Source: Candidatus Adlerbacteria bacterium
GTDB lineage: Bacteria > Patescibacteriota > Minisyncoccia > Phycocordibacterales > SBAW01
Length of the DNA: 48,403 bases
NCBI GenBank assembly: GCA_903900775.1
Contig: CAIUOD010000041.1
Span: 1 to 48,403 of the forward strand
Direction of reading: 5' to 3'
Part shown: positions 4,347 to 45,456 of the stretch, piece after piece
Layout of the letters: every line of letters begins with the position of its first letter
Position numbering within the stretch: position 1 is the first letter of the stretch
Made by a program: the position numbers and the translations under genes
Notes under the pieces: generated by a model
What the model saw: the letters and a program-made list of their open reading frames with translations, nothing else
Databases searched by the model: none
Told to the model about the DNA's origin: nothing

Positions 4347-5063
4347 ATGATGATTTTTATTATCGCCGGGGCGACCTTCTGCGCGACGCTTGTGGGCGGG
4401 CTCTTCGCGCTCAAACTCAAGGACAAACTACACCTCATCTTGGGCTTTAGCGCTGGCGCGATTGTCGCAGTCGCCTTCTTCGACCTCCTGCCCGAGGCGA
4501 TTAATCTGGGGCTAAACACGTATTCGGCCGCGGGCGTGCTTGCCATGACCGCGCTGGGTTTCGCCTGTTATCTCGTGCTCGACCGCCTCATCTTTATGCA
4601 CGACCACGCCGACGACGAACACCAAGTGGCTCGCGCACGCGCCGGGGCCGGAGCACTTTCTTTCCACAGCTTTTTGGACGGCGTCGGCATTGGGCTGGCC
4701 TTCCAGGTCTCGCCGGCGGTTGGGGCAATCGTTGCCGCCGCCGTGCTCACGCACGATTTCTCGGATGGTATCAATACCGTGGGCCTCGTGCTCAACAACA
4801 AAGGCGAGCGGGGGCAGGCATTCCGCTGGCTCTTTGTCGACGCGGTGGCGCCCGTGCTTGGCGTTGCCTCGACGCTCTTTTTCGCTATCCCGCAAGCACA
4901 GCTCGGTCTCTTGCTCGCACTCTTCGCCGGATTCTTCCTTTATATCGGCGCCTCGGATCTCATCCCCGAGAGCCATCATGCGCACCCGGTGCGCCTCACG
5001 ACCTTCCTCACGGTCCTCGGCATGGCGACACTCTATATCATCATCAAATTGGCGAGTATATAG
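4347..5063 (+). CDS. ZIP family metal transporter
   Basis: GATFCATLVGGLFALKLKDKLHLILGFSAGAIVAVAFFDLLPEA...SFHSFLDGVGIGLAF...HDFSDGINTVGLV. Confidence 0.88.
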   Translation: MMIFIIAGATFCATLVGGLFALKLKDKLHLILGFSAGAIVAVAFFDLLPEAINLGLNTYSAAGVLAMTALGFACYLVLDRLIFMHDHADDEHQVARARAGAGALSFHSFLDGVGIGLAFQVSPAVGAIVAAAVLTHDFSDGINTVGLVLNNKGERGQAFRWLFVDAVAPVLGVASTLFFAIPQAQLGLLLALFAGFFLYIGASDLIPESHHAHPVRLTTFLTVLGMATLYIIIKLASI

Positions 5064-5729
5064 TCACCTCTTTTTCTCATCTGCCGCACGCCAGAGATAC
5101 CACGAGGCCGCCGAGGCATGGGCGCGCCAGGGTTTGGCGAGCTTCTCCATCTGCACGCGGCTAGGTGGATTTTTGAGCCCGTAGACAATTTGGAATCCTC
5201 TTTGTATCCCCAAATCACCCAAGGGCAAAATGTCGGGTCGGCCGAGCGTAAAAATAAGAAACATGTGTACCGTCCAGACGCCGACGCCTTTGATCTGCAA
5301 AAGATGCGCCTCGACCTCCTCGTTGCTCATGCGGGCAAGCACGCGATGCTTAATCGTGCCATTCGCAAATTTCTCCGCGACATCTTTTATATACGACGCC
5401 TTTTGCCGCGAGAGGCCGACCGCGCGCAACTTCTCAAGCGGCATGGCTTGCACCTCCTCGGGCGTGGGGAACTTTGCGCTCCCCTTCCACCCCGCGTCGG
5501 GGCGCGCATCAATATTAAAGAGCGCAACAAATCTTGCCAAAATAGTCGCCGCCGCTTTGCCTGAGACTTGCTGATAAATAATCGAGCGCACCAATGCCTG
5601 GAAGGCGCTCCCCCGCCGCCCCATCTTGGGCGGCCCGTGCTTTTTAATCAACGCGGCAAACCTCTTGTCGCGCTTGAACACGGCCAGTGAAGGGTGCGGT
5701 TTTATGGATATTCTGGAAACTTTTGACAC
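5064..5729 (-). CDS. DNA-3-methyladenine glycosylase II-like HhH-GPD protein
   Basis: SIIYQQVSGKAAATI...LLQIKGVGVWTVHMFLIFTLGRPDILPLGDLGIQRGF. Confidence 0.9.
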   Translation of the reverse strand: MSKVSRISIKPHPSLAVFKRDKRFAALIKKHGPPKMGRRGSAFQALVRSIIYQQVSGKAAATILARFVALFNIDARPDAGWKGSAKFPTPEEVQAMPLEKLRAVGLSRQKASYIKDVAEKFANGTIKHRVLARMSNEEVEAHLLQIKGVGVWTVHMFLIFTLGRPDILPLGDLGIQRGFQIVYGLKNPPSRVQMEKLAKPWRAHASAASWYLWRAADEKKR

Positions 5730-6608: not shown

Positions 6609-7043
6609 TTACTCTTCTTGATAGAACAGCTCTATACAATCATCGAGGCCATAGATGAAATCCATTTTTAGAGCTTCGGCGGCAGAGACCCAGGCCGAAG
6701 CCTTGTGCTCGCTCGGGTTCACTACTACTTCCATCTGGCTCGGTAGTGTTGTCGAAAACATGTGGAAGCCAAAATCGTGCCCCTCGTTGCGGACAAATAT
6801 CGAGCCGAGGAATTTCAGATTGTCTTCCGATATTTGCAAGCCAGTTTCTTCGAATATTTCTCTCTGCATTGCCCGGCTCATCGTTTCTCCTTTATCGATT
6901 TTCCCAGCGGGGAATCCCCACTCTCCCCCGCTAACTTTATTCGGCTGGCGGTGAAGCAAGATGAACTTGCCGCCGCTATTAACAAAACAGCCGACAACAT
7001 CGATCTCTTTCTTAAAATCCGCCGGTTCTGTTTTAAAAATCAT
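6609..7043 (-). CDS. Nudix hydrolase
   Basis: GFPAGKIDKGETMSRAMQREIFEETGL Nudix box. Confidence 0.92.
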   Translation of the reverse strand: MIFKTEPADFKKEIDVVGCFVNSGGKFILLHRQPNKVSGGEWGFPAGKIDKGETMSRAMQREIFEETGLQISEDNLKFLGSIFVRNEGHDFGFHMFSTTLPSQMEVVVNPSEHKASAWVSAAEALKMDFIYGLDDCIELFYQEE

Positions 7044-7052
7044 TGGAATTTT

Positions 7053-7520
7053 TTAGCCCCAGACCTTACGGATTCGTTCGATAAGGTTTGTGGTCGAGCT
7101 TTCATGGACGCGAGGGATTATTTGCAATTCGATGCCTAGAGCTTCTATCTCGCTCCTTCGATCCTCCCAAACTGGATCAATACTCACAAATATATTCGGC
7201 CTGAGCGATTTCAATAACTGACTAGTTGGAGTCCTTTGTCCATCCTTACTAGCCAGAATCGTATAGTCAACGTCTCTCATTGAATCAACAAGCTCTACTC
7301 TTTCCTCTTCGGAGAGTATCGGGCGTTTCCCACCTTTCTTCGCTTTAACCCATTCATCAGATAAAACTGCGACGACCACTATGTCACCGAGCGTTCGAAG
7401 ATTCCTAAATGAACGTACGTGACCTAAATGGAAAAGATCGAACGTTCCATCCGCAAAGATAATCCTTTTATCAGAAAATTTATTCCGTAATTCCTCTAGT
7501 TCGAGAGGGTTGATTACCAT
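7053..7520 (-). CDS. Cytidylyltransferase/adenylyltransferase-like protein
   Basis: IIFADGTFDLFHLGHVRSFRNLRTLGD (HxGH motif). Confidence 0.9.
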   Translation of the reverse strand: MVINPLELEELRNKFSDKRIIFADGTFDLFHLGHVRSFRNLRTLGDIVVVAVLSDEWVKAKKGGKRPILSEEERVELVDSMRDVDYTILASKDGQRTPTSQLLKSLRPNIFVSIDPVWEDRRSEIEALGIELQIIPRVHESSTTNLIERIRKVWG

Positions 7521-7598: not shown

Positions 7599-7669
7599 TG
7601 GGAGATCGTCTAATGGTAGGACAGCGGCCTTTGAAGCCGTGAATCATGGTTCGAATCCATGTCTCCCAG
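7599..7669 (+). tRNA. tRNA-Gln (anticodon TTG)
   Basis: Acceptor TGGGAGA/TCTCCCA, D-stem GTCT/GGAC, anticodon arm GCGGC-CTTTGAA-GCCGT, T-arm CATGG-TTCGAAT-CCATG; discriminator G; no encoded CCA. Confidence 0.95.
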
Positions 7670-7695
7670 CTGGGTATTACTTTGTATTACTAAGT
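7663..7695. repeat. tRNA-Gln 3' end plus downstream block CTCCCAGCTGGGTATTACTTTGTATTACTAAGT (cassette boundary copy 1)
   Basis: Recurs as CTCCCAGCTGAGTATTACTTAGTCGTACTAAGT at 11762-11794. Confidence 0.8.
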
Positions 7696-7745
7696 GCCTC
7701 ACAGGCACATTAGCAGGACTTCCGCGATGAAGTGCGACTGGCAGA

Positions 7746-7949
7746 ATGGGACGCATGGCACGAGTTACCGTAACTTTTTGTGTATCGTTGTCACCCGAGA
7801 TGGCCGCGGAGATCGACCGGATTATGGAGATAGAGCATCGGACACGCTCCGAACTCATCCGTGAGGCGTTGCGGCGGTACTTCCGCCCTGACTCGGGTGG
7901 GACTGTGCTCGACCAGCGTACAATTAACACGAAATCCGAACGCACATAG
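7746..7949 (+). CDS. Ribbon-helix-helix (CopG-like) protein, RHH-1
   Basis: MARVTVTFCVSLSPEMAAEIDRIMEIEHRTRSELIREALRRYF; start may be 7755. Confidence 0.82.
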   Translation: MGRMARVTVTFCVSLSPEMAAEIDRIMEIEHRTRSELIREALRRYFRPDSGGTVLDQRTINTKSERT

Positions 7950-8024
7950 GCCCTTCGGATCCACCACCTCCAGCGGGGAGATCGCCGCTAGCGCGAAGGT
8001 GTCAGGGTAGTTACCATAGAGGGC

Positions 8025-10637
8025 ATGGTAGACACACGGGACGTCAGGTCCGTTACTGATAGCGCTCCGACAATATGGTCGGCTCTGGACGGTTGGGCGC
8101 GGACGCTATCATCCTGGCAGCAGTACATCATCGCGACCTCCATTTCTCGCGGCAGGCTCTCTGACGACGAGATCGATGACGCCTACCAACGGTTTCTCAG
8201 AGCCAAGGGTCTCAGCCCCACCGCGGAGGAGGACGAGGAACAGTTTCCCCTGGCAACCGGACGCCCGACTGCGCCTCTGGCAAACAAGCTTGTTCTCACG
8301 GCTATCGACGGCCTTTCTGGGATTAACGCGCTGCCTGAGGGGACGGCGATCACCTTCGGGCCAGGGTTGACTGTGATCTATGGCCGAAATGGCGCTGGCA
8401 AAAGCGGTTTCGTGCGCTTGATAGCCAACGCTTGTTTCAGTCGGCAAAAGCCGTCCATCATTGGTAACATATATGCAGATGGCGATCCACCAACGCCGAC
8501 AGCGCAATTCCACGTGTCGATTGGAGATACTCCACAGGACCCGATCACGTTTACACCTCAGGTTGCTGCCTCAGAACTCCAGCGGATTTCGGTATTCGAT
8601 GCAGCAGTTGCTCGCCACCACATCACGCAAGCCTCAGCCTTTGAGTTTAAGCCTGCAGGGTTTGATGTGTTTCCCGAGCTCGCTCGCGTGTACCGTGCTC
8701 TCGCCGAGAAGCTCGATCGAGAGATTGCAAGGCGCACAGCATCGAACGAATTTCTCCAATCTTTCCTCGACGGTGGAACGGTGGTTCATACCGCCGTTGC
8801 GGGACTGGGGCCCGACACTGACTTGAGGCCATTACGAGAGCTTGCCAGGTATGGAGCAGGTGAAAGCGCGCGCATTACGGATCTTGACAAGCAACTCTCA
8901 GCGCTGCGTGCTCAGTCTCCGAAAGAGATACTGGCCTCTCTTACGGAAGCATTGGATGACATTAGGACGCTAAGATTACAAATAATCGAACTTGGCAGCC
9001 ATTTTACCCAAGCGGCAGTTACCGAGCAACGTTCTTTAATCACTCGCGGAAAGGAGGCTTTGGCAATCGCCACCGCCGTTGGTTCAGATCAATTCAAGCG
9101 CCCATTTTTCAAAGCCGTCGGCACTCCCGAGTGGGAGGAATTTGCCACAAGGATGCATGCTCTTGCCCAGAAGGAGCATGAGGATTATCCAACCAGTGGT
9201 GATCGATGTCTACTTTGCGAAAGGGTACTCGATGACGCCTCGCGCGCACACGTCGCCGCGTTGTTTGCTTTTGTCGAAAGTGACTCTCGAAAAACTGCAG
9301 CGGAAGTCCAAGGTGTAGCTCAAGCGCACGCAGCCGTTTTGTCGAAGTTGGATGTGCCAATATTTTCGTTAAGCTCCAGGGTTCGAACTCACGTACACAA
9401 GTTGGCTCCAGATTTGGAGCCGGTAATTGAATCCGCACAAGTGTTGTTGGCTTCTGCTAGAGATTCGAGCATAACCGACGTGACCCAACTGACTGCGCGG
9501 ACGACTCCGGTTGAGCTTACGAGCGTTATCGCACAAATTGACCTACTTGCAGAGCGCATAGCGTCTGACATCGTGCGCCTCCAGGCCGATAACACCGAAA
9601 CTGCAATTGCTTCGCTTGAACTTGAACGGCGCACGATCCGGCACAGGCAACTTCTATCCCAGCTTTTGCCTGCGATCGAGGCGTTCGTCGTAGATGCTGA
9701 CTGGGCACGACGCGCGAGGGTCGCCAAGGCCGCCCTCGGCACGCGCCCGATCACGGACAAGGAAAAGGAATTGTTCGCACAGGTAGTCGGCGACGGGTAT
9801 CGCAGCATGCTTGTCGCCGAGTGCGAGAAGCTCGGTTGTGACGTCCCGGTGGAGATGCAAACGATTGGACGAAGTGGTCAGACGCTCCGCACTCTCGCGA
9901 TGAGAGGTGGACACAAACCGGAAGGAATCCTTAGCGAAGGAGAGCAAAAGGCAGTCGCTCTTGCTGATTTTTTCACCGAGGTTAGTCTTAACCCAGCGTC
10001 CGCAGGCATTGTGATCGACGATCCCGTTACTTCCCAAGATCATCAAAGAAAGGGAAACATCGCCACCAGGCTCGTCAAAGAATCACTGCAACGACAGGTT
10101 ATTGTCTTCACCCATGATCTTGTGTTTCTTAATCAGCTACTGGTTGCAGCAGACGTGAGTGGTTGTAACTTGAAATGTCACTGGATTGACCGATCATCCG
10201 ACGGTCAACCTGGACAGATCGCGTTGGGGGATTCCCCCGTGACGTCGTGGGCGTATGAGAACACAGACCGCGCAGAGCTCGCCCTATCAAACGCGAAAAC
10301 ATCCGTAGGTACTGAACGCGAGGATGCGATTCGCAAAGGTATGGCGGCGCTCCGCACCACACTCGAAGAAACCGTTGTGCGGAGGATATTTAAGGACGCG
10401 GTACCACGCTGGAGCGACCAGGTTCGTGTCACCGCGCTCAGACGCGTTAACTGGGACAACAAGAGGGTCGAGGAGGTTTGCGCACTGTACGAGGACCTCT
10501 CTCGCTTTATCGAGGCACACTCCCACACGGATGAGGCAACTGGCGCGCCAGCGACGGTTTCTGACTTAGAAATGCGGATAGCGAAGGTGAAGGAGCTCCT
10601 CAAATGGGCTCGAACTGACCGCCAAAAGGGCGGGTGA
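8025..10637 (+). CDS. RloC-like AAA/ABC ATPase with CxxC hook motif and HEPN-like C-terminus (candidate anticodon nuclease)
   Basis: Walker A YGRNGAGKSGF; CLLC motif (DRCLLCERVL); signature ILSEGEQKAVALADFF; Walker B GIVIDDPVTSQDH; C-terminal LRTTLEE (R-x3-E) and SRFIEAHSH (Rx4H/Rx6H). Confidence 0.72.
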   Translation: MVDTRDVRSVTDSAPTIWSALDGWARTLSSWQQYIIATSISRGRLSDDEIDDAYQRFLRAKGLSPTAEEDEEQFPLATGRPTAPLANKLVLTAIDGLSGINALPEGTAITFGPGLTVIYGRNGAGKSGFVRLIANACFSRQKPSIIGNIYADGDPPTPTAQFHVSIGDTPQDPITFTPQVAASELQRISVFDAAVARHHITQASAFEFKPAGFDVFPELARVYRALAEKLDREIARRTASNEFLQSFLDGGTVVHTAVAGLGPDTDLRPLRELARYGAGESARITDLDKQLSALRAQSPKEILASLTEALDDIRTLRLQIIELGSHFTQAAVTEQRSLITRGKEALAIATAVGSDQFKRPFFKAVGTPEWEEFATRMHALAQKEHEDYPTSGDRCLLCERVLDDASRAHVAALFAFVESDSRKTAAEVQGVAQAHAAVLSKLDVPIFSLSSRVRTHVHKLAPDLEPVIESAQVLLASARDSSITDVTQLTARTTPVELTSVIAQIDLLAERIASDIVRLQADNTETAIASLELERRTIRHRQLLSQLLPAIEAFVVDADWARRARVAKAALGTRPITDKEKELFAQVVGDGYRSMLVAECEKLGCDVPVEMQTIGRSGQTLRTLAMRGGHKPEGILSEGEQKAVALADFFTEVSLNPASAGIVIDDPVTSQDHQRKGNIATRLVKESLQRQVIVFTHDLVFLNQLLVAADVSGCNLKCHWIDRSSDGQPGQIALGDSPVTSWAYENTDRAELALSNAKTSVGTEREDAIRKGMAALRTTLEETVVRRIFKDAVPRWSDQVRVTALRRVNWDNKRVEEVCALYEDLSRFIEAHSHTDEATGAPATVSDLEMRIAKVKELLKWARTDRQKGG

Positions 10638-10750
10638 CCGCGGCTGTCACAGTGTTGGCTGCCGAATCCGCACGGCTTTAGGCTGCCGGACCATTGCGGA
10701 GGACGCAAGAAAGCTCGCCCGGGCGCGGTGGATGTCCCGTGCCCTCGGCG

Positions 10751-10776
10751 CACGCCGGCATCCCTGCAAATCTTCA
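10751..10776. repeat. Short direct repeat flanking mazF (copy 1) CACGCCGGCATCCCTGCAAATCTTCA
   Basis: 23/26 matches with 11352-11377. Confidence 0.75.
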
Positions 10777-10823
10777 GGAGAGACGTGCGTCAGCTACGGG
10801 CTGAATCTATCAACAAGCCTTCA

Positions 10824-10851
10824 TTGACACCTCAAGTAGGTTTGATACGAT
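10824..10851 (+). promoter_or_regulatory. Sigma70-like promoter TTGACA-16-TACGAT
   Basis: -35 10824-10829; -10 10846-10851; no plus-strand ORF immediately downstream. Confidence 0.55.
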
Positions 10852-10856
10852 AGGTG

Positions 10857-10930
10857 TACAAGTGGCTTCGGCCTCGCCCCGCAAGGGGCAAACAGCGACC
10901 GCCGTCAAAGCATTCCTTTGGCGGCGTTTC
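10857..10930 (+). ncRNA. Candidate small structured RNA, antisense to the mazF 3' end
   Basis: Downstream of the 10824 promoter: GGC-UUCG-GCC hairpin, GCCCC-GCAA-GGGGC hairpin, terminator-like GCCGTCAAAG-CATTC-CTTTGGCGGC. Confidence 0.35.
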
Positions 10931-11288
10931 GTATATTCCTGAAGGTGTCCTTGTCCAGGTAGCCGATCTTGCGCACCAGGCGCTTGGTATCGATGACCCG
11001 CATTTGCGATAGGAGGGCGGACGCGTCCTTACCGTCGACCAAGCCAACGGCAGGACGCAGCGGGTGGCGGCGAGTCGAGGTGGTCAGCGGTATCACGAGG
11101 CTCGTTGCGGCACTGAGGCCTTTGAGGATGAGAACGGGACGGCGGTACTCGCCGCCTGAGCCGTCCTGCTCAGATCCGACATTGAGCCCGAGGGAGCACC
11201 ACCACAGCTCGCGCGCATGACAGAACGGTGCATCGCTGCGCTCATTGACCTGTTTCTTTTTCTCGTTCCACGCGTCGAAGTCTTTCAT
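10905..11288 (-). CDS. MazF/PemK-family endoribonuclease toxin-like protein
   Basis: MKDFDAWNEKKKQVNE...AREVWW-like ARELWWCSLGLNVGSEQDGSGGEYRRPVLILKGLSAATSLVIPLTTS; start trimmed from 11378. Confidence 0.88.
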   Translation of the reverse strand: MKDFDAWNEKKKQVNERSDAPFCHARELWWCSLGLNVGSEQDGSGGEYRRPVLILKGLSAATSLVIPLTTSTRRHPLRPAVGLVDGKDASALLSQMRVIDTKRLVRKIGYLDKDTFRNIRNAAKGML

Positions 11289-11351
11289 CTTGCAGGACGT
11301 ATTGTAGCATCGATGATGCAATCGGCGAAAATCACTCACGTGCTTTGAGGG

Positions 11352-11377
11352 CACGCCAACATCCCTGCGAATCTTCA
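11352..11377. repeat. Short direct repeat flanking mazF (copy 2) CACGCCAACATCCCTGCGAATCTTCA
   Basis: 23/26 matches with 10751-10776. Confidence 0.75.
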
Positions 11378-11400
11378 TGGACGATATGCATCATGGTCGT

Positions 11401-11565
11401 ATGCAGATACCCGACGAGCGACTTCAGGAGTTCCAGTGCATCTATAAGGAAGAGTGTGGCGAGGAGATCAGCCTGGCAGAGGCGCGGAAAATGGCACAGC
11501 GCCTGCTGACGTTGTATGCTGTGCTCAAGCGACCTTTGCTAAACCGGGATGAACAGGCCGAGTAG
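11401..11565 (+). CDS. MQIPD-type small conserved protein, copy 1
   Basis: MQIPDERLQEFQCIYKEECGEEISLAEARKMAQRLLTLYAVLKRPLL; paralogous to 12967-13173. Confidence 0.8.
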   Translation: MQIPDERLQEFQCIYKEECGEEISLAEARKMAQRLLTLYAVLKRPLLNRDEQAE

Positions 11566-11667
11566 TGCAGATGCCGTTCTGGCTGGCGTTCAGATTTTCA
11601 CCAGAGGTCATACCGATGGTGATCGTACGACTTGCGCGTCCTACGCGGCTTGGGTTTGCTGATCACG

Positions 11668-11769
11668 CTCTCCGGCTCAAACCGAGCCCGGAGCATCCTG
11701 ACGTTGGCCACTATCCGATCCCACTCTTTCTGTGGTGTTTGGGTGCGAACTTCCTCTAAGACTCCCAGC
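11668..11769. repeat. 102-bp cassette-end repeat, copy 1 (ends CTCCCAGC)
   Basis: 99/102 identical to 13140-13241 by direct alignment. Confidence 0.95.
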
Positions 11770-11776
11770 TGAGTAT

Positions 11777-11795
11777 TACTTAGTCGTACTAAGTA
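11777..11795. promoter_or_regulatory. Perfect dyad TACTTAG-TCGTA-CTAAGTA upstream of RHH-2
   Basis: 7-bp perfect inverted repeat; degenerate counterpart TACTTTG-TATTA-CTAAGTG at 7678-7696 upstream of RHH-1. Confidence 0.55.
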
Positions 11796-11905
11796 TGGCT
11801 GCCATTTCATTCGCTGGAGCGGTGCATCCGTTAGAGTCTGACTTACTGACTTTTTGCCTCCCGGGCACGTTGGCGCCCCGTGCGCTTTATCGTCGCTGAC
11901 CGATA

Positions 11906-12082
11906 ATGGTCGGTATGGCACGAACCACGGCCACCTTCTCAGTATCTTTGCCGCCTGAGATGGAGGCCGAGATTGAGCGGGTGCAGAAGGAGGAGCATCG
12001 CACACGCTCTGAGCTCGTTCGAGAAGCCTTGAGGCAATATCTGATTCGACGACAAGTTGAGGATCGAGCGACACCGCTATGA
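11906..12082 (+). CDS. Ribbon-helix-helix (CopG-like) protein, RHH-2 (not in the supplied ORF track)
   Basis: Manual translation MVGMARTTATFSVSLPPEMEAEIERVQKEEHRTRSELVREALRQYLIRRQVEDRATPL*; 58 aa, strongly similar to RHH-1. Confidence 0.88.
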   Translation: MVGMARTTATFSVSLPPEMEAEIERVQKEEHRTRSELVREALRQYLIRRQVEDRATPL

Positions 12083-12135
12083 CGGTCCCGAGCAGGACAT
12101 GCCTTGTTGTGGTCATCCTATGCTAAAGTATCAAC

Positions 12136-12825
12136 GTGGATCTGACGGAACTGAAGAAGGAATATGTTATCGGGCAGGAGCTTGGCATCGACGCCGCATA
12201 CGGGCGCATTTTGGCGGTCATAGATTTCGGAAACGTTGACTATTGGTTCGAAGACGATCGCCAGGACGCCGACAACCAGGCTCTCGCGGAGGAGGACAAG
12301 CTTACGGTGGACCTGCGAAAGCTAAAGGAATTCGCTTCACTGTTTTCAAATCATGTGCGCTTCTACTACGGCCACGATCCTCAAAATGGGTCGCTGCAGT
12401 TCATTGCGGCCGCCCGACATATCTTTGGGAAAAACCGTGTCTTCACCAAACCGCTCCAAAAAATACGGCACCACCTCTCACCGGAGGAAATCCCCGCCAA
12501 CACTCGCACGACGTTCACCGATGCAGAGGGTGTGTACATCCATCTGCCGAAGTGCAACTTTGACGTCGAGATAGCGGTGGACACGATCCGACTCAAGGAA
12601 GAATATGATACGCTCGCGCTCTTTTCGGGCGACGCCGATTTCGTGAGTCTGTGTCGATATCTCAGCAAGAACGGCAAGAAGGTTATTCTTTTCAAAGGCG
12701 GCCACATCACATCAGATTTGCGAAAAGCGACCGACAAAGTCGTCAATGCCCAAAGCATCAAAAGACATATCGTAAGGCTCAAAAAGCGAAAACCTGGCGT
12801 TGAGCCAGGTTCCGCGAATCGTTAA
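12136..12825 (+). CDS. NYN-domain (PIN-like) predicted ribonuclease
   Basis: GRILAVIDFGNVDYWFEDD ... CNFDVEIAVDTIRLKEEYDTLALFSGDADFVSLCRYLSKNGKKVILF; GTG start. Confidence 0.88.
   Translation: MDLTELKKEYVIGQELGIDAAYGRILAVIDFGNVDYWFEDDRQDADNQALAEEDKLTVDLRKLKEFASLFSNHVRFYYGHDPQNGSLQFIAAARHIFGKNRVFTKPLQKIRHHLSPEEIPANTRTTFTDAEGVYIHLPKCNFDVEIAVDTIRLKEEYDTLALFSGDADFVSLCRYLSKNGKKVILFKGGHITSDLRKATDKVVNAQSIKRHIVRLKKRKPGVEPGSANR
12791..12811 (+). terminator. Hairpin AACCTGGC-GTTGA-GCCAGGTT at the 3' end of the NYN gene
   Basis: Perfect 8-bp inverted repeat; no U-tract. Confidence 0.35.
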
Positions 12826-12966
12826 CCCGCATCCGCGGGCAGGTAGGCTCAATATACAGGATCTTAGCTGAAAGATCAATTAAGCCTGGGGATAGCAAGA
12901 ATCCTGTGCCCGAGTGGCGTTTTGTGCCCCCTTGTACTCGCAGCAGAAATACCGCAAGTATATGGC

Positions 12967-13173
12967 ATGCAAATACCAGACAACCGCCTCACGGAGTTCC
13001 AGCGCATCTACAAAGAGGAGTATGGTGAGGAGATCAGTCTGCCCCAAGCGCGAGAGATGGCTCAACGTCTCCTGACCCTGTACACTATTCTCAGTCGCCC
13101 CATTCACGGCGGCGGCGGTGCATCGGCTTCTTCACGACACTCTCCGGCTCAAACCGAGCCCGAAGCATCCTGA
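12967..13173 (+). CDS. MQIPD-type small conserved protein, copy 2
   Basis: MQIPDNRLTEFQRIYKEEYGEEISLPQAREMAQRLLTLYTILSRP. Confidence 0.8.
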   Translation: MQIPDNRLTEFQRIYKEEYGEEISLPQAREMAQRLLTLYTILSRPIHGGGGASASSRHSPAQTEPEAS

Positions 13174-13241
13174 CGTTGGCCACTATCCGATCCCAGTCTT
13201 TCTGTGGTGTTTGGGTGAGAACTTCCTCTAAGACTCCCAGC
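13140..13241. repeat. 102-bp cassette-end repeat, copy 2
   Basis: 99/102 identical to 11668-11769. Confidence 0.95.
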
Positions 13242-13262
13242 CAGTTTGAGCTAGGTTATCGT

Positions 13263-44346: not shown

Positions 44347-45456
44347 CTACGCCGGGTGGATGAGATGGAGGACGTCGTGATACGAGATGACGAGGATGAG
44401 CAGGATGAGGAGCGCGAAGCCGGCCAACATGATGCGGGTCGCGAGATGCTCGGGGATTGGTTTACCGCGCACACCCTCTATAGCGATAAAAAGGAGTCGC
44501 CCGCCATCGAGCCCCGGCACGGGGACGAGATTGATAAACCCGAGGTTGATTGAGATGAGCGCCATAAGAAGGAGTGCCTCACTCCACCCCTGGCTCACGG
44601 CCGAGGCACCTATCCCCGCGATGCCGATGGGGCCCGAGACTTGGTTGAGATTTGCCCCGCCGGTGACTATCCCCCAGAAGAACGCGCCCAAACCAAGGGC
44701 AGTCGCTTTGGTCATCTCCCAGCCGAGGAGGCCGCCCTGTGCGAGCGCCAGGGGAGGCGAGAGTTTGAGTATGCCGACGTCGTCCATCTCGATACCGATC
44801 GCTTTGTGGCCTTCTACTAACCCCGCGACCGGCTTGGCAAGCAGATTTTTTTCTTCGCTCCCCCGCTTGATGGCAACGATAACGCTCTCGTCTTGGTGCT
44901 CTGCGATAAAGCTGGAAACCTGATCGGCAGTGAAGCTCCCCGGTAGCGTAGCGCTCCCCGTAACCACGCCCTCAACTACATCGCCCGCTTTAATGCCGAC
45001 CGTATCGGCGGGCGAGCCGGGCAAAACCGCGACAATGGTGGTGTGTGCGTTTTGTACCGTTCCCCAGCCGATATGTTCGGCCGAACTCGGGAGCCCCACC
45101 ATATAGCCGGCCGAGAGCAAAAGCCAGGCGAAAATAATATTGCAAACGATGCCCGCAACGATGACCGCCGCCTGGACCCAGCGCGAGCGCTGTGAGAAAT
45201 TTTTTTTATCAAAAATAGCCGCGCCTTCATCGGCCGAGGCTGACTCGCCCTGGATACGCACAAAACCGCCCAGCGGGATCGCGTTGATGGAATATTCGGT
45301 TCCCTTAAAGCGGCGCGAAAATAATTTCGGCGGGAAGAAAATACCGAACTCTTCGACCCCGATGCCGAAAAGTTTCGCGACCGTAAAATGCCCCAACTCG
45401 TGCACGATAACGAGCGCAACCAGGAGCGCGATAAAAATGAGGAGTGCCGCAATCAT
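44347..45456 (-). CDS. rseP: Site-2 protease RseP/M50 family
   Basis: ALVIVHELGHFTVAKLFGIGVEEFGIFFPP; NLVPVPGLDGGRLLF; PDZ. Confidence 0.94.
   Translation of the reverse strand: MIAALLIFIALLVALVIVHELGHFTVAKLFGIGVEEFGIFFPPKLFSRRFKGTEYSINAIPLGGFVRIQGESASADEGAAIFDKKNFSQRSRWVQAAVIVAGIVCNIIFAWLLLSAGYMVGLPSSAEHIGWGTVQNAHTTIVAVLPGSPADTVGIKAGDVVEGVVTGSATLPGSFTADQVSSFIAEHQDESVIVAIKRGSEEKNLLAKPVAGLVEGHKAIGIEMDDVGILKLSPPLALAQGGLLGWEMTKATALGLGAFFWGIVTGGANLNQVSGPIGIAGIGASAVSQGWSEALLLMALISINLGFINLVPVPGLDGGRLLFIAIEGVRGKPIPEHLATRIMLAGFALLILLILVISYHDVLHLIHPA

Follow-up and report, generated by a model that had tools for sequence, protein, structure and literature searches.

By which route do Patescibacteria, whose genomes are very small, gain accessory genes? 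The route is poorly known, and the question is raised by a 48,403-nucleotide contig of Candidatus Adlerbacteria bacterium (CAIUOD010000041.1 of assembly GCA_903900775.1; contig C41 of genome G000, which comprises 756 kb in 41 contigs). The whole of this stretch is called the window here. Two tandem gene units are situated in it directly downstream of a tRNA-Gln(ttg) gene. An earlier note on this DNA had proposed that they arose by repeated site-specific insertion at the tRNA-Gln 3' end of a non-autonomous element carrying RNA-targeting defence or toxin genes. The window, the rest of its genome and other genomes, mostly draft assemblies, were compared. The units are probably non-autonomous integrative cassettes, inserted at tRNA 3' ends by a large serine recombinase (LSR) supplied in trans.

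ARAGORN placed an intact tRNA-Gln(ttg) at 7599..7670 (+ strand), the putative anchor and left half of the attachment site attB. The two units behind it extend over about 7671-11768 and 11769-13240, as the earlier note had described. Each unit opens with a conserved left end and a ribbon-helix-helix (RHH) gene and closes with a small gene, termed MQxxD here, and a 102-bp block ending in CTCCCAG. This motif occurs on the + strand at 7663, 11762 and 13234, and there is one further unrelated copy at 44716. The end blocks (11667..11768 and 13139..13240, + strand), which were delimited by repeat search and comparison of copies, are identical at 98 of 102 positions; their near-identity had been recognized correctly while the count of 99 had not. 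The shared 33-bp left-end block was also recovered, with 29 of 33 positions matching between 7663-7695 and 11762-11794. By comparison with other left ends, 7671..7695 and 11770..11794 (+ strand) represent the putative P' halves of units 1 and 2, and the former carries two GTATTACT repeats spaced 10 bp. The putative P halves are found at 11742..11769 (GGTGCGAACTTCCTCTAAGACTCCCAGC; gap scan, site pattern and profile) and, at the right end of the array, at 13214..13241 (pattern and profile), both on the + strand. CTCCCAG is followed there by CCA (13241..13243, + strand), as it is at the right end of a second array described below; both right ends read CTCCCAGCCA, and CTG now replaces CCA behind the window tRNA. 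This CCA is probably the encoded CCA tail of the tRNA, displaced to the far end of the array. No recombinase gene was found inside the units, which agrees with the earlier suggestion that they would be mobilised in trans.

The second array is present in the same genome (locus L005; block matches at C4:42957 and C4:44266). Behind a tRNA-Gln(ctg) at 4649-4724 stand two units built in the same way, with RHH genes at 5625 and 7147, MQxxD genes at 6791 and 8100, and end blocks that finish at 7061 and 8370. The four blocks are identical at 92-98 of 102 positions (90-96%), while the MQxxD and RHH genes show about 68-86% identity. The four units form one family, situated at both tRNA-Gln loci found in this genome, a recurrence that goes beyond chance. 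A DNA search with the block in 98 relatives matched this genome only.

The unit end appears to be more than a plain copy of the tRNA. The last 28 nucleotides of the unit (GGTGCGAACTTCCTCTAAGACTCCCAGC) imitate the 3' end of the tRNA (GGTTCGAATCCATGTCTCCCAGC), except that they contain exactly 5 additional nucleotides. When the tRNA 3' half was matched to the unit end in a blind scan over gaps of 0-10, gap 5 was best in the window (18/23), L005 (16/23), L121 (17/23) and the LSR element L018 (18/23), against shuffled controls with a mean of about 14 and maxima of 15-16. In a first scan, restricted to the DNA behind the MQxxD gene, gap 5 was also best in G163 (17/24) and G163b (19/24); in a second scan a plain tRNA copy lying 41 nt downstream scored above gap 5 in G163, and gap 9 did so in G163b (20 vs 19). 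In serine integrases the zinc-domain motif of attB lies 5 bp closer to the centre than that of attP (Rutherford et al. 2013, PMC3783163). With CA taken as the central dinucleotide, which is our own choice, the window motif occupies positions 16-24 in attP and 11-19 in the tRNA, the same as the published positions. The core shared by tRNA and cassette site is CTCCCAGC for the ttg tRNA and CAGC for the ctg tRNA. From this geometry the repeat is best read as the attP half-site of an LSR which mimics the tRNA; the resemblance to the tRNA 3' end reported earlier holds, but a simply copied end is the less fitting description.

Which enzyme might use such a site? The window's genome encodes four LSRs, none with a cassette-like site, and the one tyrosine recombinase found in it is Xer-like. 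In the genus as a whole, LSR genes are found time and again directly against a tRNA 3' end and convergent with it; in four other species this tRNA is tRNA-Gln. One such element, L018, occupies tRNA-Gln(ctg) close to pyrG. Beyond its right end comes a 352-bp unit that terminates in the window-type half-site. This unit (L018:9232-9584), which has one small open reading frame (ORF) and directly follows the LSR element, is a possible minimal non-autonomous cassette beside its helper. As a separate observation, many tRNA-integrated LSR frames (L035, L017, L018, L052, L053) extend into the tRNA antisense strand, and the annotated C-terminus of such proteins would change on integration.

Exact block patterns had no match among viral contigs, and a looser site pattern had one, IMGVR_UViG_3300046710_000492 (IMG/VR; L302/L303). 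Its site, GGTTCGAACATCGTCTAAGTCTCCCAGC, is identical to the window site at 24 of 28 positions and lies within the 3' end of a 656-aa LSR ORF (phrog_95 integrase), to which an MQxxD gene directly adjoins. The halves of this site are symmetric (CGTCTAAGTCTCC-CA-GCAGTCTTGGACG), with about 10 of 13 positions agreeing around the central dinucleotide; the symmetry is partial in the window (GAGTCTTA/GAGTATTA) and absent in G319. GTCTCCCAGC is common to the L303 site and the window's tRNA-Gln. On the antisense strand the window block translates to LGVLEEVRT, and the C-terminus of the L303 LSR is LGDLDDVRT.

To follow the spread of the system, 397 genomes of the order were analyzed, and MQxxD homologues were present in 74 of them. 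Many of these are located beside replication genes or within a few kb of an LSR gene. Other homologues have no LSR and a same-strand tRNA upstream (Gln in L083, L085 and L086; Val, Ser, Gly and others elsewhere), with cargo such as a SoFic-like Fic protein (PADLOC 5e-40), a Z1 helicase (Helicase_II 4e-50) or NYN. A locus in another family, L097, matches window unit 2 in almost every gene, with RHH, NYN (79% identity) and MQxxD genes, and is then followed by GGTGCGAACATCGTCGATGACTGCCAGC; the gene order seen away from the window thus ends in a site of the same kind, and at most loci the sites are tied to tRNA ends, where the earlier note would have been contradicted by the same order at unrelated loci without repeats. 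NYN homologues in eight other genomes have no site, MQxxD or RHH gene nearby, and therefore the cargo is not tied to the system. In GTDB and viral collections no close relative of MQxxD was met, one match (37%) being in a record titled Odoribacter.

Sites were also searched directly with the pattern GTGCGAANNTCNTCNANGNCTNCCAGC, derived from the own-genome copies, allowing up to 2 mismatches. It recovered the four own-genome sites and matched in 11 of the 397 genomes in all, in two of them probably by chance, and the reversed pattern matched in none of 397. Weak matches in G370 and G302 were rejected as chance. A profile was built from the pattern-found sites, which therefore score high by construction; scores at cassette boundaries are mostly 30-42, and the best in 1.1 Mb of reversed DNA was 17.7. 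In other families the arrays reach 8-9 compact cassettes and usually stand behind tRNA-Gln. In G092, three sites follow tRNA-Gln(ttg) where one contig ends, and a second contig, not proven to be adjacent, has six. Four sites follow tRNA-Gln(ctg) in G391, one strong and three weaker ones in G393, and one cassette in G032, which belongs to the window's genus; G319 has eight sites and no tRNA in 16 kb. The array cassettes measure 210-2922 bp, are mostly single-gene and encode, among others, prepilins, HAD hydrolases, a D-Ala ligase and a kinase. Most start codons in G092 lie about 48 nt past the junction, with the stop a few nt ahead of the next site, and a terminator-like hairpin after the tRNA recurs after nearly every site. 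The G092 array (L257, L258) is also rich in prepilin-like genes, most of them behind a hairpin similar to the post-tRNA one, hinting at possible surface-protein variation. Repeated insertion at the tRNA-Gln 3' end, as first proposed, is thus supported by the second array, the arrays in other families, the LSR-type geometry and an LSR with a similar putative attP. RNA-targeting cargo as its defining feature had to be given up, since relatives carry SoFic-like Fic, Z1 helicase, prepilins, hydrolases and D-Ala ligase; the cargo is often, not always, defence- or toxin-like.

On this basis the following course of events may be suggested. A circular cassette would carry attP, the left half of which (P, the end of the 102-bp block) would imitate the T-loop and acceptor end of tRNA-Gln. 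A tRNA-targeting LSR from another mobile element, either a virus or a plasmid-like element, would act in trans and recombine attP with the tRNA 3' end at CAGC in such a way that the tRNA stays intact. The next cassette could then enter at the junction nearest the tRNA, or the shared block could bring it in by homologous recombination, and the outcome would be tandem units whose inner junctions are again P-P'. The cargo would sit between RHH, probably a regulator, and MQxxD, which often accompanies such recombinases and is a candidate accessory factor, e.g. a directionality factor.

Several observations weigh against this reading. No excised circle and no close empty site were seen; within the genus, tRNA-Gln(ctg) at pyrG is mostly inverted relative to L005, which makes orthologous empty-site comparison unusable there. 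None of the four LSRs of the window's genome is at tRNA-Gln. In the retrieved DNA no tRNA lies upstream of the sites in G319 and G364 or of one site in G391. A serine recombinase was not found in the site-bearing genomes G319, G114, G182 and G423; the enzyme must therefore be transient there, or another enzyme is involved. In the gap scan the gap-5 signal was absent at the cassette loci G110, G114, G423 and G344. The 5-nt offset appears to be a supportive and not a universal test for LSR att sites, because the distal ends of most other genus LSR elements have no clear offset site and three are plain tRNA copies. The right half-site (P') is kept within a genome, hardly at all in G319, and the sites are less symmetric than a textbook LSR attP.

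The genomes without a serine recombinase also speak for a tyrosine recombinase, either the resident Xer or an integron-type integrase, which would move the cassettes with the tRNA end as an attI-like site. The cassettes are indeed compact and integron-like, with one site at the 3' end, and one Xer-type enzyme is present in the window's genome. However, at the junction the cassette site has no more than CAGC in common with tRNA-Gln(ctg), too short for a 6-8 bp overlap, the junction is not GTTRRRY and so unlike attC, and the 5-nt offset together with a putative attP inside an LSR gene fits serine recombinases; this explanation is considered unlikely. The tandem arrangement could in principle have an ordinary origin, if an old insertion was duplicated locally and at the second tRNA-Gln by homologous recombination and its cargo diverged afterwards. 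Gene conversion would leave the block (90-96%) more conserved than the genes, as is the case. The left ends are conserved too, though, the units have unrelated cargo, and in other families tRNA-Gln is again followed by sites but with other genes, so that such a history is very improbable. Finally, the block might be a conserved coding or RNA element, such as an antisense small ORF or a tRNA-like processing signal, and not a recombination site; several MQxxD cassettes do have a similar open frame on the antisense strand (LGVLEEVRTQTPQKEWDRIVANVRML...). But single-gene cassettes keep only the 27-bp site, the frame closes soon after, the sites sit at cassette boundaries, and in L303 the same frame is the LSR C-terminus, which renders this view hardly credible. 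Insertion by an LSR in trans is therefore preferred.

The genes of the window units conform to the noted order of RHH, effector and MQxxD. In unit 1, an inverted repeat GTGCCT-CAC-AGGCAC (7694..7708, read from the sequence), similar in L005 unit 2 and L097, lies upstream of the CopG-type RHH gene at 7755..7949 (+; PF01402, RHH_1, E=1e-8; four-copy alignment). It is followed by an 870-aa AAA_13 ATPase at 8025..10637 (+; PF13166, 5e-15), matched full-length by the PADLOC model PDC-S06 (E=1e-122 over 23-861) and hence a candidate defence gene, for which the RNA cleavage predicted earlier would be a putative role. A PemK/MazF-like gene is encoded at 10905..11378 (-; PF02452, 1e-12) and the MQxxD gene at 11401..11565 (+; alignments, family search). 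Unit 2 contains the RHH gene at 11915..12082 (+; PF01402, E=3e-9), a NYN-domain (LabA-like) gene at 12136..12825 (+; PF01936, 7e-15), the one with the L097 homologue, and the MQxxD gene at 12967..13173 (+; alignments). Unit 1 may be a fusion of two cassettes in which the inner MQxxD gene and site were lost, because the region upstream of its MQxxD gene (11336-11393) has a second copy, found by repeat search, at 10735..10792 (+; 72%). Both RHH and MQxxD look maintained, since the codon differences between copies include many silent changes. AlphaFold predicted the MQxxD protein of unit 2 as a two-helix hairpin (pLDDT 82), for which fold comparison gave no convincing match; the model of the 870-aa ATPase, made with no alignment, was uninformative (pLDDT 39).

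Some observations concern the tRNA-Gln(ctg) loci themselves. This tRNA, which often lies near pyrG/ftsX, is a hotspot where insertions recur across the order (L005, L018, L083, L085, L177, L188, L260, L261). The first unit of L005 opens with a ClpP/prohead-protease-like gene (L005:4786-5250), a phage-like cargo. In L085 (9540-9640, - strand), part of tRNA-Gln(ctg) is repeated almost exactly about 40 nt downstream of the gene, perhaps as a separate, older insertion scar.

If the insertion reading is true, tRNA-anchored cassettes would offer distant families a general means of exchanging defence genes, surface proteins and enzymes, the sites would be searchable by sequence, and cassette arrays would extend beyond the integrons with their tyrosine recombinases. 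A further prediction is a testable pair of recombinase and site, namely the L303 LSR and the tRNA-Gln end, and possibly a new directionality factor.

Among the papers listed by literature searches, none describes arrays of this kind in Patescibacteria, although this does not prove that there is no such paper, and the system looks like a previously unnoticed way of collecting genes. It resembles several known systems in part. The LSR elements of the genus (L018, L017, L051-L053) also integrate at tRNA 3' ends, many have MQxxD, and L018 shows the attP/attB offset; unlike the cassettes, they encode a recombinase and often replication genes. tRNA-integrated islands with tyrosine integrases, e.g. 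tycheposons, insert at tRNA 3' ends and have non-autonomous members as well. Here, in contrast, the direct repeat measures no more than about 4-10 bp, 5 nt are inserted in the distal copy and the units contain no tyrosine integrase; their hallmark, a long repeated tRNA 3' segment, was not observed at the window or L005, which have a short shared core.

The closest functional analogues are staphylococcal cassette chromosome (SCC) elements and integron cassettes, and the window system belongs to neither. SCC elements undergo LSR-type integration at one conserved site and form tandem composite islands, with recombinase-less members and mixed cargo including defence. SCC and the Enterococcus cassette chromosome would share these features with the arrays described here. 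However, the target of the latter is a tRNA 3' end where SCC uses rlmH, and the units are about 0.2-4 kb, lack a recombinase and occur in Patescibacteria; the window units carry no ccr recombinase genes and are inserted at tRNA-Gln, not at the rlmH 3' end. Integrons likewise consist of tandem, mostly single-gene cassettes in one orientation, with a terminal recombination site and a single anchor. IntI integrase was not found in the window's genome, the only array genome searched for it, and the attC core GTTRRRY is not at the cassette junction, which reads CAGC. The patescibacterial site appears to be an LSR-attP-type tRNA mimic instead of attC, the anchor is a tRNA gene, and some cassettes carry regulators or start with a terminator-like hairpin. 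Patescibacteria may possess, as a tentative proposal, an integron-equivalent gene-capture platform built on serine recombinases, with tRNA-Gln as anchor, a tRNA-mimicking attP half-site at the end of every cassette, virus- or plasmid-borne LSRs that would insert cassettes into lengthening arrays, and MQxxD as accessory factor.
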